Part shown: piece after piece, positions 1,317 through 30,124 of the stretch
Layout of the letters: each line of letters begins with the position of its first letter
Numbering within the stretch: position 1 is the stretch's first letter
From: a virus
Reading direction: 5' to 3' (one strand)
Virus record (IMG/VR): IMGVR_UViG_3300002053_000046
Coordinates: 1 to 30,124 of that record
Length of the DNA: 30,124 nucleotides
Position numbers and translations under genes: made by a program
Notes under the pieces: generated by a model
Told to the model about the DNA's origin: nothing
Seen by the model: only the letters and a program-made list of their open reading frames with translations
Databases searched by the model: none

Positions 1317-1440
1317 TACTACTGTATTTTTCTTTCAGAAAAATACGAGTAACTTAACTATAAATCAAAGATTTATAGGAAAAAGTTTCTACAAAAAAAA
1401 CTTTTGCTTTTAGTTTTTTGATTAAAAGAAAAAGTAGTAT
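1317..1440 (+). ncRNA. Multibranch hairpin element (candidate structured RNA or folded DNA site)
   Basis: This sits in a gap of about 300 bases with no gene (1247-1548). An outer stem pairs TACTACT (1317-1323) with AGTAGTA (1434-1440). Inside lie four consecutive hairpins: P1 1324-1332/1338-1346 (9 bp, perfect), P2 1358-1366/1370-1378 (9 bp, perfect, 3-nt loop), P3 1382-1389/1399-1406 (8 bp) and P4 1408-1413/1424-1429 (6 bp). A competing long pairing is possible: TTTTTCT (1327-1333) with AGAAAAA (1428-1434) stacked next to the outer stem. It could be a phage ncRNA, a leader or 3' UTR element, or a folded single-strand DNA site for the nearby recombinase or for replication. The strand is not established. 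Stems are AT-rich, and no known RNA family was recognised. Confidence 0.45.
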
Positions 1441-2586: not shown

Positions 2587-3333
2587 ATGAAGATAAATAT
2601 TAAACAGTTTGCAAGATTTCTTGAATTAATAAATGTAAGTGGTTCAGTTGAAATTAAAGAGTGTATTATGATTGGGGATAAAAAGAATTTGAGAGTAACA
2701 GCAAGAACTCCTTCAAATACCTTTGCTCTTACAGCAAAATTAAAAGGAGATTTCTCTGAATTAGAAACTGTAGGAATAGATGACCTCGCTCTCTTGAGAA
2801 AAGTAATATCTCTAAATGATGAAGAAGTTGATATTACAAGAAAAGAGAATACTATTATTTTTAAGAATAAAACAACAAAAGCAAAATTATTATTGAGAAA
2901 TCCTAAATATATTTTAACTGCTTTAGAAGAAGATATTTATATGAAAAAGGCGAAAGCTTTTAAAGGAAATGAATTTACATTACGCAGAGAAGATATTGAT
3001 AAGATAGCCAAATACTACGAAGTATTTAAAGGAGAAATATTTATCTCTGGTAGTGATAATGTTATCACTTTTATTTTTGGAGAAGCAGGGATTTCTGAAA
3101 TCGCCCCTATGCCACAAAATACAGCGGAAGTTAAAATTGCTATAAAAGAAAAAGTAAAATCTTTCAATTTATTAGTCGCAGGATTTTTAATTGAAGCTCT
3201 TATACAAATAAAAGAAGATGTTACTGTATCAGCAAACACAGATATGCCTATGATTATAAATGCTAAAACAGATTATTCTGAAGTAGAATATCTTGTTGCT
3301 CCATTAAAGAGATTAACGACTAAAGATGAATAA
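2587..3333 (+). CDS. DNA polymerase sliding clamp (PCNA/gp45-like)
   Basis: 248 residues, the usual size of trimeric PCNA/T4 gp45-type clamps (about 230-260), rather than the about 370 of bacterial beta clamp. The pattern is two repeated beta-alpha domains joined by a linker near residue 120, with a C-terminal VEYLVAPL resembling the terminal strand of PCNA-fold clamps. The role is to encircle DNA and tether the polymerase (here the family B enzyme at 27729) after loading by the RFC-like protein at 5281. The start is supported by ATAAGGAG before the ATG. The next gene begins inside its 3' end and carries a clamp-binding-like motif. Confidence 0.8.
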   Translation: MKINIKQFARFLELINVSGSVEIKECIMIGDKKNLRVTARTPSNTFALTAKLKGDFSELETVGIDDLALLRKVISLNDEEVDITRKENTIIFKNKTTKAKLLLRNPKYILTALEEDIYMKKAKAFKGNEFTLRREDIDKIAKYYEVFKGEIFISGSDNVITFIFGEAGISEIAPMPQNTAEVKIAIKEKVKSFNLLVAGFLIEALIQIKEDVTVSANTDMPMIINAKTDYSEVEYLVAPLKRLTTKDE

Positions 3334-3598
3334 AAAACAAGACCAAACATCTTTATTTGAAGAATTAGAAAATAACGATTGGAGAGAGGAGTGGAAAGAG
3401 ATGCCAGAATATATTCAAGAAGATTTAAATCCTAAAAGAAAGCTTATAGTTAATTTTGAGACAGACGAAGACTTTGAAAAATTTGTAAAGAAATTAGAAT
3501 TGACAGATATGATGACAGATAAAACAAAATCTATCTGGTATCCTATTCAAGAAAAAGAACCTCCGAAAAATTTTGGTTATATCTTTGATGAAGAATAA
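3326..3598 (+). CDS. Conserved phage-type protein with QTSLF clamp-binding-like motif
   Basis: 90 residues, overlapping the clamp gene by 8 bases. Residues 7-11 read QTSLF, matching the QxxLF class of sliding-clamp binding peptides, inside a flexible acidic N-terminus. The middle reads WKEMPEYIQED, then a ferredoxin-like or ParB-associated pattern with a predicted strand (LIVNFETDEDFEKFV), and TKSIWYP. This combination recurs in phage proteins of unknown role that are often annotated near ParB or methyltransferase domains. Direct adjacency to the clamp supports physical interaction, but that is inference. Enzymatic activity is not evident. Confidence 0.65.
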   Translation: MNKKQDQTSLFEELENNDWREEWKEMPEYIQEDLNPKRKLIVNFETDEDFEKFVKKLELTDMMTDKTKSIWYPIQEKEPPKNFGYIFDEE

Positions 3599-3995
3599 GA
3601 AAATTTTAATAGTAGGAGAAAGATTTGCAAAAGATATTAAAACCGCTATTCCGTTCAAGAATGGTCAAAGTGCCAGAAGAGTTAGAAATTGGTTTAATAA
3701 GAATACTTATGAAGATATGATAAAAGTTGCAGATATAATCAACGCAATACCGAAATATTCTGATTATGATACTATGATGAATTATATTAAAATAAGAGAT
3801 TATTCGATTATATTTTTATTGGGTCGAATAGCTCAAAGAGTTTTATTTAGCAATTTAAAGAAAGATATAACTACTATAACTCATAATGATAGAATTTTTG
3901 TATTGTTACCGCATCCATCCGGTCGAAATTTTTCTTGTAATCATAAAGATAAAAAGATAAAAAAATTCGTAGAGAGAATACTAAATGAATCCTAA
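3588..3995 (+). CDS. Uracil-DNA glycosylase superfamily-like protein
   Basis: From ATG 3588 the protein has 135 residues. It opens with KILIVGERF (the first strand and Gly-Glu motif of family 4/5-like UDGs), continues with PFKNGQSARR (the PF..G region) and ends with LLPHPSGRN (H109-P-S), equivalent to the His-Pro-Ser motif 2 that contacts the flipped base. It has no Cys ligands for an iron-sulfur cluster and is short (usual about 180-220). It may excise uracil or another modified base, or it may be a binding-only homologue. It overlaps the glycosyltransferase gene by 11 bases. The start has no clear Shine-Dalgarno and overlaps the upstream stop, so translation is probably coupled. Confidence 0.6.
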   Translation: MKNKKILIVGERFAKDIKTAIPFKNGQSARRVRNWFNKNTYEDMIKVADIINAIPKYSDYDTMMNYIKIRDYSIIFLLGRIAQRVLFSNLKKDITTITHNDRIFVLLPHPSGRNFSCNHKDKKIKKFVERILNES

Positions 3996-4875
3996 ATATC
4001 CAATTTATATAGTCTCGAAGAGTCGCTGGGAAAGTCGATTAACAGCAAAAGCTCTTGAGAATATCAATGTCCACTATTATATCGTAGTAGAAAAACAAGA
4101 ATATGATAAATATAAATCTGTTACAGATGATAAAAAAGGAACAGTATTAATATTACCTCAAAAATATCTCGATGAATATGATACTTGCGATAATTTAGGA
4201 AATACTAAAAGCAAGGGTCCAGGCGCCGCTCGAAACTTTTGTTGGGAACACGCTATCGAATTAAAAGCAAAGAGACATTGGGTTATGGATGATAATATAG
4301 GAGCTTTTTGTCGATTAAATAAAAATAGAAAGATTAGAGTTTATACAAGTGCTATGTTAAGAGCCGCGGAAGATTTTGTAGATAGATATACAAATGTGCC
4401 TCTTGCTGGATTAAATTATAGATTTTTTGCGCCAGAGAGAGATGAACAGCCACCTTACAGATTAAATACTCGAATATACTCATGTCTATTAATAGAAAAT
4501 TCTGCACCTTATCGATGGCGAGGGCGATATAATGAAGATACAGATTTATCTTTAAGAGTATTGATAGACGGAAATTGCACTATTTTGTTTCAAGCTTTTT
4601 TATGTGATAAGTTAGGAACTCAAAAGTTAAAAGGCGGAAATACTGAAGCTTTTTATGCGAAAGAAGGAACTTATAACAAATCTAAAATGCAAGTTGATTT
4701 ACATCCAGAATTATCTTGCATGACAAAAAGATTTGGAAGATGGCATCATTATGTAGATTATAGATGTTTTAAGAATAACAAATTGATTCGAAGAAAAGAT
4801 TTAAAATTAGAAGATAAAATAAACAATTATGGAATGAAATTAATTAATTTCAATACAAAAGAAGTTATAGAATGA
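3985..4875 (+). CDS. TET-associated-type (TAGT/GREB1-like) glycosyltransferase
   Basis: 296 residues with a GT-A-like layout. It has an N-terminal YPIYIVSKSRW strand, a nucleotide-sugar binding area, GPGAARNF (about 78-85), then WVMDDNIGAF with the DxD-like acidic pair at D102-D103, and later NEDTDLSLR near residue 185. This arrangement matches the TAGT family described in phages and kinetoplastids, where it is linked to TET/JBP enzymes and glucosylates hydroxymethylated bases. The substrate here is not provable: no TET/JBP or hydroxymethylase gene is visible in the window. It is embedded between a UDG-like and a deoxyribosyltransferase-like gene with overlaps on both sides. Confidence 0.7.
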   Translation: MNPKYPIYIVSKSRWESRLTAKALENINVHYYIVVEKQEYDKYKSVTDDKKGTVLILPQKYLDEYDTCDNLGNTKSKGPGAARNFCWEHAIELKAKRHWVMDDNIGAFCRLNKNRKIRVYTSAMLRAAEDFVDRYTNVPLAGLNYRFFAPERDEQPPYRLNTRIYSCLLIENSAPYRWRGRYNEDTDLSLRVLIDGNCTILFQAFLCDKLGTQKLKGGNTEAFYAKEGTYNKSKMQVDLHPELSCMTKRFGRWHHYVDYRCFKNNKLIRRKDLKLEDKINNYGMKLINFNTKEVIE

Positions 4876-5294
4876 AGTTATATTTTGCTCATAATTTTAA
4901 TAATAGAAATGAATTTAGAGAAATAGAACTTCAACTTGAAAAAGAGTTGAACATAGAATTATTTAATCCTTTTTATGATGATTTGACAAGAATAGAAGAA
5001 ATGAATTTATTAGATAAAGGAGAAAAATTTAAAGAAGATAAAACTTATTCAGAAAAAGTTGTAAGAAGAGATTTAAAGAATTTAGCTTCTTGCGATGGTT
5101 TATTAACGATTATAAAATCTCCAAGTATAGGAACGACTTTAGAAATAGCAAATGCTCGATTGATGTGCAAAAAATATATAATAGTTATAAGCGAAAAATA
5201 TTCTGAACATCTATGGTTAAAAGAATATACGACTCATAGATTTAAAACAATAGAAGAATTTAAAAACTTTGTGAAAAAAAATGAGCGAACTTAA
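4872..5294 (+). CDS. Nucleoside 2-deoxyribosyltransferase-like protein
   Basis: 140 residues with the Rossmann-like pattern of the nucleoside 2-deoxyribosyltransferase superfamily. An N-terminal LYFAHNF strand replaces the usual YLAGP. CDGLLTIIKSPSIGTTLEIANAR carries the catalytic-type Glu in G-T-x-x-E-I. KYIIVIS forms the last strand. These enzymes exchange or hydrolyse nucleobases on deoxyribonucleosides or deoxynucleotides. It is joined by ATGA overlap to the glycosyltransferase and by a 14-base overlap to the clamp loader. A second, longer relative lies at 8792. It might salvage nucleotides or remove a competing nucleotide from the pool. The glycine motif is weak, so substrate and activity are open. 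Confidence 0.6.
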   Translation: MKLYFAHNFNNRNEFREIELQLEKELNIELFNPFYDDLTRIEEMNLLDKGEKFKEDKTYSEKVVRRDLKNLASCDGLLTIIKSPSIGTTLEIANARLMCKKYIIVISEKYSEHLWLKEYTTHRFKTIEEFKNFVKKNERT

Positions 5295-6183
5295 AGAACT
5301 TATATGGATAGAAAAATATCGACCTTCAAAAATAGAAGACCTTATTCTTCGTAATAAAAGTCAGATACTTAAATTCTTAGATAATAATGCAACTATACCT
5401 AATTTTCTTTTAGTCAGTAAGAAACCCGGCACAGGAAAGACTACTTTAGCAAAAATAATAATTACTATGACAAATGCAGACTCAATTAAAATTAACGCTT
5501 CAGATGATAGAGGAATTGATATTATAAGAGAACGAGTAAAGAAGTTTGCAGGTGCTTTATCAAGTAATAATAAACGACGTTGTGTATTTCTTGATGAATT
5601 TGAGGGCACCACCAGACAAGCTCAAGATAGCTTAAAGTCTATTATAGAAACTTACGCAGATAATACTTTCTTTATATTTACAGCGAACGACGCTTCTAAA
5701 ATAATCGAACCTATAAAGAGCAGATGTGTTACTATTGATTTTGAATTACCAAATAAAGACGATATTTTAAATAGATTGAGTTATATTTGTAAGCAAGAAG
5801 AAATGAAGATAGAAGAAGATGATTTACGCAGATTAATCGATTATAATTATCCTGATATAAGAAGCTGTATTAATACTTTACAGATGTGGAAGACTTCGGG
5901 TAAGATTGAATTTCCAGAAGATAGATTTATGAAATTTTGGGAAGCTGTCAAAAATAAAGATGTTACTTATATATATGGAGAGACATATAGCGGAACTTTT
6001 AATATATTAGAATATAATAAGTGGATGTGGGAAAAATTATTCGAGAATTATGATAAGTATGGATTGGATAAGACTTCTAAAATGGCAGAGCAATTAGCAG
6101 AGATTGAGAAAAGTCATTCGCTTTCAGCTAATTTAGAGATTGTATTTATTTCAGCTTGTTTAAATATAATGAGACTATTATGA
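5281..6183 (+). CDS. Clamp loader ATPase (RFC small subunit/gp44-like)
   Basis: 300 residues with the AAA+ clamp-loader order. WIEKYRPS at the N-terminus is a hallmark of RFC subunits. Walker A KKPGTGKTT is at about 47-55 and Walker B VFLDEFE at about 102-108 (acidic Phe-Glu in place of the usual Ala/Cys-Asp). FTANDASKI gives sensor 1 and IKSRC the arginine-finger Ser-Arg-Cys. A collar domain follows to residue 300. It loads the clamp encoded at 2587. It ends in ATGA overlap with a 44-aa gene and is followed by a gp62-like candidate, as in T4 genes 44-62. Confidence 0.88.
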   Translation: MSELKELIWIEKYRPSKIEDLILRNKSQILKFLDNNATIPNFLLVSKKPGTGKTTLAKIIITMTNADSIKINASDDRGIDIIRERVKKFAGALSSNNKRRCVFLDEFEGTTRQAQDSLKSIIETYADNTFFIFTANDASKIIEPIKSRCVTIDFELPNKDDILNRLSYICKQEEMKIEEDDLRRLIDYNYPDIRSCINTLQMWKTSGKIEFPEDRFMKFWEAVKNKDVTYIYGETYSGTFNILEYNKWMWEKLFENYDKYGLDKTSKMAEQLAEIEKSHSLSANLEIVFISACLNIMRLL

Positions 6184-6314
6184 ATATAGAATCGATTTAT
6201 ACGAAAAGTTTGTTGAGCAAATACGGACTTGATTTATTAGCTCTTTCATATTGTGAAGATGTTAATCCAAGAGAGCTTTCACTATGTTTAAATGAACAAG
6301 GATTTTTAAAATGA
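6180..6314 (+). CDS. Small hypothetical protein (44 aa)
   Basis: ATG 6180 overlaps the clamp-loader stop and its own TGA overlaps ATG 6311, so the gene is precisely coupled on both sides. The product is a predicted helical peptide containing SKYGLDLLALSYCED and a short acidic stretch. No family is recognised. It could be a separate small protein or an N-terminal element of a loader accessory factor. The exact ATGA joins are the main evidence that it is real. Confidence 0.55.
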   Translation: MNIESIYTKSLLSKYGLDLLALSYCEDVNPRELSLCLNEQGFLK

Positions 6315-6697
6315 TTAAATTTTTCGACATATTAAATATGCTCTATACCAAAAAGAAAGTCCAAATCGAAACAGATACTTCCTTAAATATAACCCTTTCA
6401 AAATGGCTTTCTTACGATAAAGATAATCTCGTTTTTTTGAAAAGATTACTTAAATATCAATTTTATCTTGACCCTAAGCATTATTTTTATATGCTCTTTT
6501 TTAACATTCCTAAGAAAAGTAAAGCTCCCTTTTTAAAGAAGATAGATAAACATGAAGAAAAAGAAGATACTCTTCTAAATAAAGTTAAATATATATTAAA
6601 TTGGTCAGATAGTGATATAAGAAAAAATAGAATTATTTTAAATGAGACAATATTAAAGAATGTTTCTTATTGGAAAAAGGAGGTTGGAGTAAAATGA
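6311..6697 (+). CDS. Putative clamp-loader small subunit (gp62-like)
   Basis: 128 residues, no ATPase motifs. The pattern LNITLSKW, a run ending in LDPKHYFYMLFFNIPKKSKAP, then a lysine-rich segment and IRKNRIIL resembles the phage clamp-loader small-subunit family (T4 gp62 and relatives). Those proteins share an N..LS motif, a middle Asp-x-x-x-x-Tyr segment and a basic PKK/RKKR patch before a C-terminal helix. Position right after the RFC-like gene matches the T4 44-62 order. Overall similarity is low, so this is pattern-based inference. An unrelated small phage protein remains possible. Confidence 0.45.
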   Translation: MIKFFDILNMLYTKKKVQIETDTSLNITLSKWLSYDKDNLVFLKRLLKYQFYLDPKHYFYMLFFNIPKKSKAPFLKKIDKHEEKEDTLLNKVKYILNWSDSDIRKNRIILNETILKNVSYWKKEVGVK

Positions 6698-14295: not shown

Positions 14296-14718
14296 ATGAG
14301 AAAAATAAATTTAAAAGATTTAGAACGAGAAATACAACAAAGAAGCAAATACAAAGAAAAAATTGTTATAATTTCGGGCACTAAAAACTGGAAAAATTAT
14401 CTTTTTAATATTGAAAAATTTCAGATTTATGAAGTTGATGGAGAATGGGTTAGAAATAATTTATGTTGTTATTTTGGTATAGGAGGTCATGGAAGAGTGC
14501 ATGAATTTATACCTAATAATGAAATATGGATAGCAAAAAACCATGCAGATATTGAAGAAATGTCTCGAACTATTTTACACGAAATAAACGAATACAAAAA
14601 AATGAAAAAATTACCTTATTTTCAAGCTCATCAAAATTCATTGGTAGAAGAATATAAAAATTCTAAAAAATTAAATTTAATAATTAAAAAATTTTTAGAA
14701 ACAAAGAATGTAATTTGA
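14296..14718 (+). CDS. Putative HExxE-type zinc hydrolase
   Basis: 140 residues. DGEWVRNNLCCYFGIGGHGRV and EFIPNNEIWI precede ILHEINEYKKM and YFQAHQNSLVEEY. The HExxE followed at about 15 residues by an Ala-His and then Glu recurs in phage and archaeal proteins that look like minimal metallopeptidases. Metal binding is inferred from this spacing. It starts 7 bases after the deformylase stop. Alternatively, it could be a non-enzymatic metal protein. Confidence 0.5.
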   Translation: MRKINLKDLEREIQQRSKYKEKIVIISGTKNWKNYLFNIEKFQIYEVDGEWVRNNLCCYFGIGGHGRVHEFIPNNEIWIAKNHADIEEMSRTILHEINEYKKMKKLPYFQAHQNSLVEEYKNSKKLNLIIKKFLETKNVI

Positions 14719-14720
14719 TT

Positions 14721-15467
14721 ATGAGTAAATTTACAAAAAAAGATATAAAATTAAAATATATAGATATTTTAGATTCTGAAGGTATAAAACTTTTTAATAA
14801 AGCTATGAAAATATTTTCTTCTATTTTTATTGAAGATATTTATTATATTAAAACAATGCGAAAAATTTTGAGAAGAAAAATTCATCCTCATAATACTATT
14901 TTTAGAATTTTAGTAGCTATTAATAAAAAGAATAATCAATTAATAGGAGTTTGTATATATAGACATTGGATAGATATTAATAGAAGCACATTAGAATATT
15001 TAATGGCACGGCTTAATTTAAGAAGTTGCGGAATTGGGTCTATTTTATATAAAAGATTACAAAAAGATTTGCGTATTTTAGGTTCAAAAGGATTATATTT
15101 TTCATGTGCGGGAGATACTAATTTAGAAAAATATGATATAGACGAAAAATGGAAAGACATTAATATGAAAAGAGTTAAATTCTATGAAAAACATGGAGCA
15201 AGACCTTTGAAATATATAAATTATAGCAGTCCTTTATATTGGCATAAACAGCAAGAAACTTATTGTTATCCTAATCTATGTTACGACCCCTTAAAAAAAG
15301 TTAGTAAACAAAAACGTATAAGAGTGTCAAGTTGTTTAGTAAAAGAAATTGTAAGAAGAGTAATGAAAACTTATTATGGAGTTCCTTCTTCTAATATAAA
15401 TGTTAGAAGAATTTTAAAAAGTATCAAAACTCAAAAATTAGAATGGAGAAAAGCTCGTTATGTTTAA
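14721..15467 (+). CDS. GNAT-family N-acetyltransferase
   Basis: From ATG 14721 the protein has 248 residues (a TTG start two codons earlier is possible). The GNAT core is visible: LIGVCIYRHWI (beta 4-like strand), a following acidic strand, RLNLRSCGIGSILYKRL (the R/Q-x-x-G-x-G/A acetyl-CoA loop) and RVKFYEKHGARPL near the C-terminal strand. The last 70 residues are a basic extension. It acetylates a protein or small molecule; with the deformylase next door, N-terminal acetylation is a possibility but is not shown. It overlaps the M50 gene by 8 bases. Confidence 0.65.
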   Translation: MSKFTKKDIKLKYIDILDSEGIKLFNKAMKIFSSIFIEDIYYIKTMRKILRRKIHPHNTIFRILVAINKKNNQLIGVCIYRHWIDINRSTLEYLMARLNLRSCGIGSILYKRLQKDLRILGSKGLYFSCAGDTNLEKYDIDEKWKDINMKRVKFYEKHGARPLKYINYSSPLYWHKQQETYCYPNLCYDPLKKVSKQKRIRVSSCLVKEIVRRVMKTYYGVPSSNINVRRILKSIKTQKLEWRKARYV

Positions 15468-16143
15468 ACTGATAATTTCTGGAATTAATTATTGGCTATG
15501 GTGTTGGTTATCTATAACAATTGCTATTTTAGTGCATGAATTTGGACATTTAATTACAGCTATAATATGTAAAGTCAAAGTTGAAACATTCAGTTTAGGA
15601 TTTGGTAAACCTATTTGGAAAAAGAAAAAATACGGCATAAATTGGCAAATTACTCCTTTTTTAATAGGAGGATTTACTGCTCTTTACGGAGAAAACGAAA
15701 AGAAGAAAAGAACAGGATTTTTGGCTCAAAGATATTTAAAAAAATTATTAATTTTATTAGCAGGAGTTATTATGAATTTAGTTATAGCATTATTATGTTA
15801 TTTAATAGCTTATAAATCAATAGTTATTGGATTACTTATAGACTTTTCTTTAATTAAATTTTTAATTACAAAAAACGATTTACTACTTTTTAATTTAATG
15901 CAACAATATGAATTAAATCCTTTTATTGTTCAATTAAGCGTAATAAATTTGCTATGTTTTATTTCAAATCTTATTCCTTTTCCTTGTTTAGACGGAGGAC
16001 AAATATGGTTAGTTTTAATAGAGAGATTTTTTAAAAAGAAAAAATCTTTTGAAAAATTTATGTTTTGGCTAAATAAAATTGGGTTTTGGATTTTAATGGT
16101 AATACAAATTTTTATAATATATTATATATGGATTAAAAAATGA
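15460..16143 (+). CDS. Site-2 protease-like (M50) intramembrane metallopeptidase
   Basis: 227 residues with four to five hydrophobic segments. The HEFGH motif (H26-E27-F28-G29-H30) lies in the first helix, and NLIPFPCLDGGQ (LDG motif) lies near residue 180, as in S2P/SpoIVFB/RseP. It has FSLGFGKP and GGFTALYG around the first membrane re-entrant loop, and no PDZ domain. It is predicted to cut membrane proteins inside the bilayer. Together with the membrane-anchored trypsin-like protease at 12481 it resembles a site-1/site-2 pair, a suggestion rather than evidence. ATGA overlap with the following gene. Confidence 0.85.
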   Translation: MFKLIISGINYWLWCWLSITIAILVHEFGHLITAIICKVKVETFSLGFGKPIWKKKKYGINWQITPFLIGGFTALYGENEKKKRTGFLAQRYLKKLLILLAGVIMNLVIALLCYLIAYKSIVIGLLIDFSLIKFLITKNDLLLFNLMQQYELNPFIVQLSVINLLCFISNLIPFPCLDGGQIWLVLIERFFKKKKSFEKFMFWLNKIGFWILMVIQIFIIYYIWIKK

Positions 16144-27732: not shown

Positions 27733-30124
27733 GTCGTTTAGTTAATATTTACAATAATTATCGCACTATTTATCTTTTTCAAAGAGATGAAGAAGGTCAA
27801 CAATTTATAGATACCGTTGCTGATTTTTATCCTTATTTTTACGAATCTTCTGATGAACAATTGAATAATAAAAAAAGTGTTACTGGAATTCCCGTTAAAA
27901 AAATCATAGTCTCTAATCCCTTAGAAGTGCCTAAAAGAAGAAGCGACCAAGCTTGGGAAGCCGATGTTTTATTCGTTAAAAGATTTATGCTTGATAAAAT
28001 AAAGAAGTTAGAGAAATGCCCTATAAAATGGGCCATGCTTGATATAGAGGTCTTAGCGAAAGAGTTGCCCGACGTAACTCAAGCTAAAGACCCTATATCT
28101 TGCATTACGATTTATAATAATTTTACGAAATTGTATAATACTTTTTATTTAGGAGATTATGAAACTGAATATCAGATGATGGAAGATTTTATTACTTATT
28201 TACAAAAAGAAAAATTTGATTTATTGATTGGTTGGAATATGACAAATTTTGACTATCCTTATTTAGCAAATCGCCATCCCGACTTCGCTCAACAAATTAG
28301 TCCTATAAACGAAACTCGCTATGGTCAGAATTGTCAATATCCTGCAGGGATAAGTATTGTGGATTATTATTCTTGGTTTAAAAAGATAACAGCAGGAAGA
28401 GAAAAATCCTATAAATTAGATAATATCGCTCAAAAATATTTAAAAGACGAACCAAAAGGAGAAGTTGATTTTAGCAAATTATCGATTGAATTAAAAGAAA
28501 AAAATAAATTAGACGTAAATCAGCTTGTAAGATTAGAAGAGAAAAGACAACTTATTCCTTATTATGATGAAATTCGTAGATTAAGCAAAGTTGAATGGGA
28601 AGATATGATTTGGAATTCTCGAATTATAGACCAATTACTATTACAAGAAGCGTCGAGACAGAACCTAGTGCTTCCTATGAAACCCAGCGAAGAAAGAGGA
28701 ACTTTAAATGAAAAAGAAGAATTCGAGGGAGCATATAGAGAAGTTTTTAAAACGGGGGTGTTTAAAAATGTAGGCAAATATGACCTTGCTTCCGCATATC
28801 CTTATGCTATTATGGATTTTTGTTTAGACCCGGCTAATATCAAATTACAACAAGAAAAAAATTGCATTAAAATCGAGGAAATTTATTTTAAACAAAATGA
28901 AGAAGCTATATTGCCAATTGTTGTCAAAAAGTTGACAACTTTAAAAAATCAAATTAAAGAAAAGTTGATAACTTTGAAATCAGAATCTTCTGAATATAAA
29001 AATATCAAACAAATGTATGATGCTGTTAAAGCTATAGTAAATAGTGCATACGGAGTTATGGGAAATCGTTTCTTTAGACTTTATGATAAAAGAGTGGCAT
29101 CTGCTACTACTTTTATAGTGAGGTCACTTTTATATTATGTTAGAGATAAACTTAAAGAACTTGATTATGAAGTTATTTATATAGATACGGATTCAGTTTT
29201 TGTTCAAAGCAAAGAAAATATTACAGATTTATTAAACAAACTTATTCAAGAATGGGCAAAAGAAATATTTGGAAAAGAAAATGTTAATATTGAATTTGGC
29301 TATGAGGGTTTATTTGAAAAATTATTTATTCTTACTCTTTGTAGATATGACGGAGATTTAAGAAAACCTGACGGAGATTTAGAAAGAGAAATTAAAGGCA
29401 TAGAAGCTAAAAGAAAAGATTCTACAATTTTTCAAAAGACATTTCAAAAAGAATTATTAAAACAACTTAAAGAAGAAAAATCAAAAGAAGACATTATTTC
29501 TTGGATTCAACAGCAATTTGAAGTAATTAAAACAGCCCCATTAGAAGAGATAGGATTTCCCTGCAAACTTGCTCAAGCTAAAGAAAATTATAAGAACATT
29601 CCAATTTTTGTGCGAGCATTGGAAAATACTGAAAATTTCGATAGATTAATAGGAGAAGATTTTTATTATATTTATGTTTTACCTACAGGATATGAAAGAA
29701 GAAAAGAACGCATAGAATTTTTAGATGGTAAGAAATTAACGCTTTCTTCTCTTAAAAAAGAATGGCAAAAACATTTCGGAGAAAATATCCCAACAACTAA
29801 TATAAATAAACAAATAGATAAAAAAGAAGAATTACTTAATTTTTTAGAAGCAAATGGAAGATTAATTGTAAAAGAAGGTATAATTGAAGGCAAGCCCAAG
29901 GATGTTATGGCTTTTGATAGACAAAATAAAAAACATATAACTAATTTAGATTGGGATAGAATTATCGACCGCAATATTATGATGAAATTAGATTCTATAT
30001 TTGAAGCTATGAAATGGGATATTAAAGAGATTAATTATAAACCTTTGAATATCAAATGTTCACTAAAACGTGAACATTCAAGAAATATAAATATTGAACC
30101 TATAAATAAAAATCAAACTCAACT
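27729..30124 (+). CDS. Family B DNA polymerase, 3' end outside the window
   Basis: The frame is open for at least 798 residues with no stop. Exonuclease motifs I (MLDIE, D105-E107) and II (NMTNFD, N170-D175) are present. Exo III is less clear because the usual Y-x3-D appears as VRLEEK-like residues. Polymerase motif A YDLASAYPY (D352), B KAIVNSAYG (K434-G442) and C YIDTDSVF (D486, D488) are complete. The residues after motif C (about 310 so far) suggest that the end is near. It replicates phage DNA with the clamp at 2587. The start ATG overlaps the cupin stop. Confidence 0.92.
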   Translation, partial: MSRLVNIYNNYRTIYLFQRDEEGQQFIDTVADFYPYFYESSDEQLNNKKSVTGIPVKKIIVSNPLEVPKRRSDQAWEADVLFVKRFMLDKIKKLEKCPIKWAMLDIEVLAKELPDVTQAKDPISCITIYNNFTKLYNTFYLGDYETEYQMMEDFITYLQKEKFDLLIGWNMTNFDYPYLANRHPDFAQQISPINETRYGQNCQYPAGISIVDYYSWFKKITAGREKSYKLDNIAQKYLKDEPKGEVDFSKLSIELKEKNKLDVNQLVRLEEKRQLIPYYDEIRRLSKVEWEDMIWNSRIIDQLLLQEASRQNLVLPMKPSEERGTLNEKEEFEGAYREVFKTGVFKNVGKYDLASAYPYAIMDFCLDPANIKLQQEKNCIKIEEIYFKQNEEAILPIVVKKLTTLKNQIKEKLITLKSESSEYKNIKQMYDAVKAIVNSAYGVMGNRFFRLYDKRVASATTFIVRSLLYYVRDKLKELDYEVIYIDTDSVFVQSKENITDLLNKLIQEWAKEIFGKENVNIEFGYEGLFEKLFILTLCRYDGDLRKPDGDLEREIKGIEAKRKDSTIFQKTFQKELLKQLKEEKSKEDIISWIQQQFEVIKTAPLEEIGFPCKLAQAKENYKNIPIFVRALENTENFDRLIGEDFYYIYVLPTGYERRKERIEFLDGKKLTLSSLKKEWQKHFGENIPTTNINKQIDKKEELLNFLEANGRLIVKEGIIEGKPKDVMAFDRQNKKHITNLDWDRIIDRNIMMKLDSIFEAMKWDIKEINYKPLNIKCSLKREHSRNINIEPINKNQTQ

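Follow-up and report, generated by a model that had tools for sequence, protein, structure and literature searches.

Genomic Context of the Element

The window analysed here is the whole record of an uncultivated virus (30,124 bases), in which essentially every gene lies on the + strand. In the 5' to 3' direction, a tyrosine recombinase, a zinc-ribbon protein and a PC4-like protein are followed by a 302-nt gap, a promoter, a 66-aa ORF and a 224-aa protein. The genes and signals at this locus are as follows.

to 569, + strand, tyrosine recombinase (Pfam Phage_integrase, 6e-24)
566-901, + strand, zinc-ribbon protein (weak match)
1040-1246, + strand, PC4-like protein gene, directly upstream of the gap (Pfam PC4, 5e-15)
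1493-1522, + strand, sigma-70 promoter TTGACA-18-TATAAT, 12/12 consensus; a downstream neighbour, not part of the element
1549-1749, + strand, small basic ORF of 66 aa, the conserved first gene after the promoter; a neighbour
1633-1675, + strand, intrinsic terminator GCGAGC..GCTCGC then CGTTTTT, inside the basic ORF; a neighbour, possibly linked
1746-2420, + strand, 224-aa protein of no clear family, after the basic ORF

The gap (1247-1548) is the longest stretch of the window without an ORF on the + strand, and the runners-up measure 87 and 65 nt. An initial annotation of the sequence had described a gene-free stretch of about 300 bases with a PC4 gene, a tyrosine recombinase and a strong promoter as neighbours, and all of this was borne out; no other long gene-free stretch exists in the window. 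Taken as a whole, the annotation was mostly right: its fold and context held, but its outer stem was misplaced by one base and the competing stem that it proposed failed.

Folding of the Element

Folded as + strand RNA, 1317-1440 reached -32.5 kcal/mol, compared with -15.4 ± 2.95 kcal/mol for shuffled sequences (z -5.8; 0 of 200 shuffles as good). With seven flanking bases on each side, z was -5.5. The fold of the - strand was also significant (z -3.0 to -4.5), as was that obtained with DNA parameters (z -5.1). The window was also cut into 484 overlapping tiles (mean z -0.13, sd 1.1), of which the one at 1303 had the second lowest score (z -5.27). The lowest-scoring tile lies inside the polymerase gene, where 28035-28105 (z -6.6), the most stable fold of the window, forms a long hairpin near the start of a 3'-open ORF resembling a family-B DNA polymerase. 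The parts of the element are listed below.

1272-1298, + strand, P0 hairpin TATTTCTATA [AAGACTA] TATAAAAGTA, imperfect in the window (folding)
1317-1323, + strand, outer stem 5' strand TACTACT (folding; the same TACTACT in the relative G003)
1324-1346, + strand, P1 hairpin GTATTTTTCT [TTC] AGAAAAATAC, 10 perfect bp (1324-1333/1337-1346; folding)
1358-1378, + strand, P2 hairpin CTATAAATC [AAA] GATTTATAG, 9 perfect bp (1358-1366/1370-1378; folding)
1381-1405, + strand, P3 hairpin AAAAGTTTCT [ACAAA] AAAAACTTTT, less secure (folding)
1402-1407, + strand, TTTTGC motif; TTGC or TGC precedes the last hairpin in relatives (by eye; for G001-G003, also the covariance model)
1407-1428, + strand, last hairpin (P4/P5 position) CTTTTAGTT [TTTT] GATTAAAAG, 9 bp including two G.U (folding)
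1433-1439, + strand, outer stem 3' strand AGTAGTA (folding)
1437-1447, + strand, conserved 3' block GTATCCAATAT, once only in the window (comparison with relatives)

The annotation had counted four hairpins, two of them with perfect 9-bp stems. P1, with 10 perfect pairs, P2, with nine, and the last hairpin are the secure parts of the fold. P3 is not secure: its arms are partly taken in the minimum-free-energy structure by a stem under P2, with which P3 competes.

The outer stem (1317-1323/1433-1439) has a pairing probability of 0.85 and is real, but its 3' strand does not lie at 1434-1440, where it had been placed. A long-range stem between TTTTTCT and AGAAAAA had been proposed as a mutually exclusive fold stacking beside the outer stem. 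The forced fold reaches -26.4 against -32.7 kcal/mol (6.3 worse), the pairing probability is 0.0003, and the competing stem was rejected on these two grounds; the idea of mutually exclusive folds is left unsupported. AGAAAAA lies at 1427-1433 and not at 1428-1434. As A1433 is needed by both stems, the competing stem cannot stack beside a complete outer stem. Neither of its strands was conserved in the relatives.

Relatives and Distribution

Direct searches with the PC4, clamp or P2 sequence alone gave no close relatives. Relatives were reached through the phage RecA, then PC4, then the 224-aa protein, and the junction was placed by whole-record synteny. The element was found at the corresponding junction in six uncultivated phage genomes besides the window (G001, G002, G003, G006, G009 and G013; G009 has a near copy, 3300017991_000401), and folding was in excess in all seven members. 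The synteny is fixed. In these seven genomes, the element separates the integrase/PC4-side genes from the next early unit, which has a promoter of its own. G004 and G005 have the recombinase, the promoter and the basic ORF. The flanking ORFs are only about 136 and 86 nt apart there, and the array of hairpins is absent. Thirteen more distant loci had no gap of comparable length at the corresponding place, as judged by gap length.

Local alignment against shuffles gave z values of 26 for G001-G002, about 6 for G003 with G001 and with G002, 3.3 for the window with G003, 2.8 for G009-G003 and 2.7 for G006-G003; G013 was not significant. For the homology of the window to G003, 2 of 200 shuffles were as good, and for G003 against G001 and against G002, 0 of 200. 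The annotation had proposed a covariance-model search for compensatory changes in relatives. A model of the G001-G003 core run over 45 records recovered confidently only its three training members, but compensatory changes were present in the stems, as described below. The window, G006, G009 and G013 scored below the confident level of this model, so their membership rests on synteny and on pairwise similarity to G003. Given these alignment scores, G013 is counted as a member by its position, as are G009 and G006 to a smaller extent.

The 224-aa protein had no match in isolated phages. The primase had only distant matches in Enterococcus phages, and no relatives were found in bacterial genomes when sought via the primase. 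Blastn to phage records gave weak A+T-rich matches only, and a further search for basic-ORF loci gave none that were new. No close cultured relative of the lineage hosting the element was found in the searches made here.

Other features of these records were observed. The clamp (2587-3333), the clamp loader (5281-6183) and the ORF at 6311-6697 of the window match G012 with 32-50% identity, and the clamp and loader have no match in G001-G006, G009 or G013, though the flanking genes are kept there; by this comparison, 2587-6697 looks like a swapped replication block. The records of G005 (L210/L215) and G013 (L184/L188) each have sequence common to both ends, which suggests that these genomes, of about 101.6 and 89.5 kb, are complete and either circular or permuted. 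In G001 (L201), the recombinase ORF continues to 426 aa from its listed start, and the CVSEDTEILTENGWKKYNELEIE that follows the catalytic HTFRH looks like the start of an intein.

Conservation of the Stems

G003 is the nearest relative of the window. Its P2 is TACGTTATC AAA GATAACGTA, compared with CTATAAATC AAA GATTTATAG in the window. The loop and the three closing pairs are identical (ATC AAA GAT), and the six outer pairs of the nine have changed on both sides and are all still paired. Six double changes were reached by 7 of 500 shuffles, and slid controls gave 0-2 such pairs. In G001-G003, a common 3' core consists of TTGCA, about 14 nt later a 4-bp hairpin with a 3-nt loop, and GTATCCA; the arms of the hairpin are AGGC/GCCT, AGCC/GGCT and GGGC/GCCC. 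In the alignment of these three, P3 and P5 have double-sided changes in 5 of 11 pairs, and 88% of cells are paired, against 27-64% when slid. The MAFFT alignment of four cores is not a structural one.

Short stretches of sequence are also kept. GTATCCAATAT is identical in G003; the window and the examined part of G003 each have a single copy, which lies inside the element. The 3' block GTATCCA is present in G001, G002 and G006; G009 and G013 do not have the exact block. The P0 loop AAGAC is common to the window, G001 and G002, as compared by eye. Pairing between a 5' ATAC (TAC for the window) and the GTA(T) block is possible in six members, and it extends with different letters to 7 bp in the window, 11 in G006 and 12 in G013; the 7-bp stem of the window is not kept in G003, which has ATAC/GTAT only. 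Since the ends of the compared stretches were chosen by the analyst for the outer-stem fold, conservation of the outer stem across members is suggestive, not proven.

What is conserved is a series of short hairpins, P0-P3 and the last one, most of them perfect, flanked on the 5' side by a strand of ATAC type and on the 3' side by a GTATCC block. The hairpins are kept in related phages while nearly all of their letters change, which indicates that the element is real and structured. The annotation had supposed a functional structured element, and the excess stability in the window and six relatives, with double-sided changes in P2, P3 and P5, agrees with it. We are almost certain that the structure is a selected one.

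The Downstream Unit

The intrinsic terminator inside the basic ORF was present in all six genomes having both the element and the ORF, and in one (L219) of the six loci having the ORF and no element. Its arms are unrelated in G006 (AATCCACAG/CTGTGGATT) and G013 (AATACTCGTT/AACGAGTATT), at the corresponding place. G009 has the element and no basic ORF. As the element-bearing genomes are related and the 12 loci compared are related by descent, the co-occurrence of terminator and element is a hint, not proof, of a possible linkage. Basic genes with an internal terminator lie at 1549-1749 of the window and in L201, L204, L032, L033 and L122. Transcription from the promoter would stop about 150-230 nt on, and expression of the whole basic gene should therefore need read-through. 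Pairing between the leader and the U-tract was seen in the basic-ORF transcript of the window and rejected, as it is not conserved.

RNA or Single-Stranded DNA

In the symmetric stems, departures from Watson-Crick pairing were about equally divided, with 11 G.T and 8 A.C. Whole-element z-scores favoured the sense strand in 7/7 members, barely in G003, and the order reversed in G002 and G013 with other boundaries. Taken by themselves, the P0 stems of G001 and G002, with five G.T and no A.C, lean towards RNA. No promoter of at least 10/12 was found within the element on either strand, so any RNA over the element would come from upstream, PC4-side read-through. The element probably acts as RNA.

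The annotation had offered three guesses, an ncRNA, a recombination site or a replication origin, and RNA, whether an ncRNA or a structured segment of an mRNA, is the most probable of them. In G004 and G005 the recombinase is present without the element at the junction, which makes a recombination site less likely; an attP of the nearby recombinase would be expected to accompany the integrase gene. The case for an origin is weakened by the distance, about 9-18 kb, to the points where gene strand and GC skew switch, although such a switch is a weak marker here, where skew follows gene strand. Long, strongly structured gaps lie at or near gene-strand and GC-skew switches in G001 (57250-58185) and G002 (14484-15942), and these are candidate origins or divergent control regions.

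Comparison with Known Systems

Rfam 15 covariance models gave 0 matches at the gathering threshold in the window and the loci of the six relatives, and the best sub-threshold hits in both were microRNA-like and at chance level. A tRNA or tmRNA (a 7-bp outer stem followed by TCCA) was considered and rejected; ARAGORN found 0 genes. Phage structured RNAs and structured intercistronic elements are a known kind, and the present family seems not to have been described before, as far as the sources searched show. The EAR element of Bacillales eps operons is a multi-helix RNA between operon genes that is linked to terminator read-through, and it is expected among the Rfam families. Our element is likewise multi-helix and lies between genes, but differs in those genes, in having no Rfam match and in having no established pseudoknot.

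The putRNA of phage HK022, which lets polymerase ignore terminators of the phage's early operons, is about 70 nt long, has two stem-loops and works in cis on terminators at distances of kilobases; putR is located about 270 nt from its start site (PMC9378689). Like the present element, putL and putR are hairpins of phage early-region RNA upstream of intrinsic terminators, and put needs no dedicated protein (PMC9378689). They differ in having two stem-loops and their own early promoter upstream, whereas here there are 4-5 hairpins with no promoter found inside, and two stem-loops downstream of an early promoter were not seen; a promoter further upstream is possible. A downstream intrinsic terminator is shared, through the six genomes described above. 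This likeness is one of layout, and antitermination activity here is putative. GOLLD and other phage-associated ncRNA candidates (PMC2864571) are also structured RNA candidates from comparative and metagenomic data only; the present element is short (about 120-200 nt), intercistronic and without an Rfam match.

Proposed Mechanism and Alternatives

We tentatively prefer, as one possible explanation, a cis-acting RNA of the upstream transcript, with antitermination as its favoured and unproven form. The element would function as an RNA that arises solely when transcription of the upstream genes reads through, and would act in cis on its own transcript or on the polymerase making it. In the preferred version, which is processive antitermination of the put/EAR type, a polymerase having transcribed the element would read past the terminator that follows about 200 nt later, within the small basic gene, and one from the intervening promoter would normally stop there. 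Excess folding in 7/7 members, covariation, homology to G003, synteny, the lack of an internal promoter and the terminators were counted in favour. The near equality of G.T and A.C, the dependence of the strand order of z-scores on the boundaries in G002 and G013, the common descent of the 12 loci behind the terminator link, the terminator in L219 without the element and the absence of the window's 7-bp outer stem from G003 were counted against.

A stand-alone ncRNA acting in trans, cut from or ending the upstream transcript, is a somewhat doubtful alternative. Its partners would be of the host or the phage, reached through the unpaired TTGC and GTATCCA motifs, and the hairpins would form a scaffold whose sequence can change freely. 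The discrete conserved ends and the fold kept despite sequence drift suit it, and phi29-type packaging RNA is likewise reported to have a variable sequence on a conserved fold (PMC12670572). The phi29-like phages are small, have tails and prime their replication with a protein (PMC11476376). The records here, in contrast, reach 70-100 kb with another architecture and no Rfam match. Neither an own promoter nor a terminator at the 3' end of the element was found, and very little sequence is conserved, the exact 3' block being missing from two members.

A DNA element is unlikely; its single-stranded hairpins or cruciforms would serve as a site of replication or recombination, and the PC4-like protein might bind there. 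The stems are nearly all Watson-Crick without an excess of G.U, the fold is significant with DNA parameters too, and PC4-like and recombinase genes are nearby. However, G001 and G002 have the best-conserved cores and no PC4 match, two genomes have the recombinase with an element-free junction, the strand and skew switches are distant, and some strand-switch gaps are about equally structured. It is a little less likely still that the element is a passive structure of an mRNA 3' end or spacer, such as exonuclease protection or an RNase processing site, for which any hairpins suffice. Hairpins varying freely in number and sequence, at the end of a gene block just ahead of a strong promoter, would fit, but the GTATCC block, the TTGCA and 11-nt hairpin core of G001-G003 and the kept P2 loop are left unexplained. 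Accidental good folding of an AT-rich intergenic stretch is scarcely credible: very A+T-rich sequence has many weak inverted repeats, of which the competing stem is a case, but a z of about -5.8 is repeated in relatives with compensatory changes, and this covariation already contradicts chance.

Returning to the cis-acting reading, its boldest form would be a new class of phage RNA, with hardly any sequence constraint outside short unpaired motifs, that acts as a switch of early transcription: polymerase having made this RNA would pass a terminator within a conserved coding sequence, and polymerase from the strong local promoter would not. We regard this as quite improbable. Because the terminator lies inside the next gene, antitermination is directly testable by a reporter. 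With no match in Rfam 15, the element is a candidate structure from a phage lineage for which the searches made here gave no close cultured relative. As a DNA site, it would give a clue to the replication or integration of these genomes. As an antiterminator, it would provide a further case of a phage controlling host RNA polymerase by RNA only.
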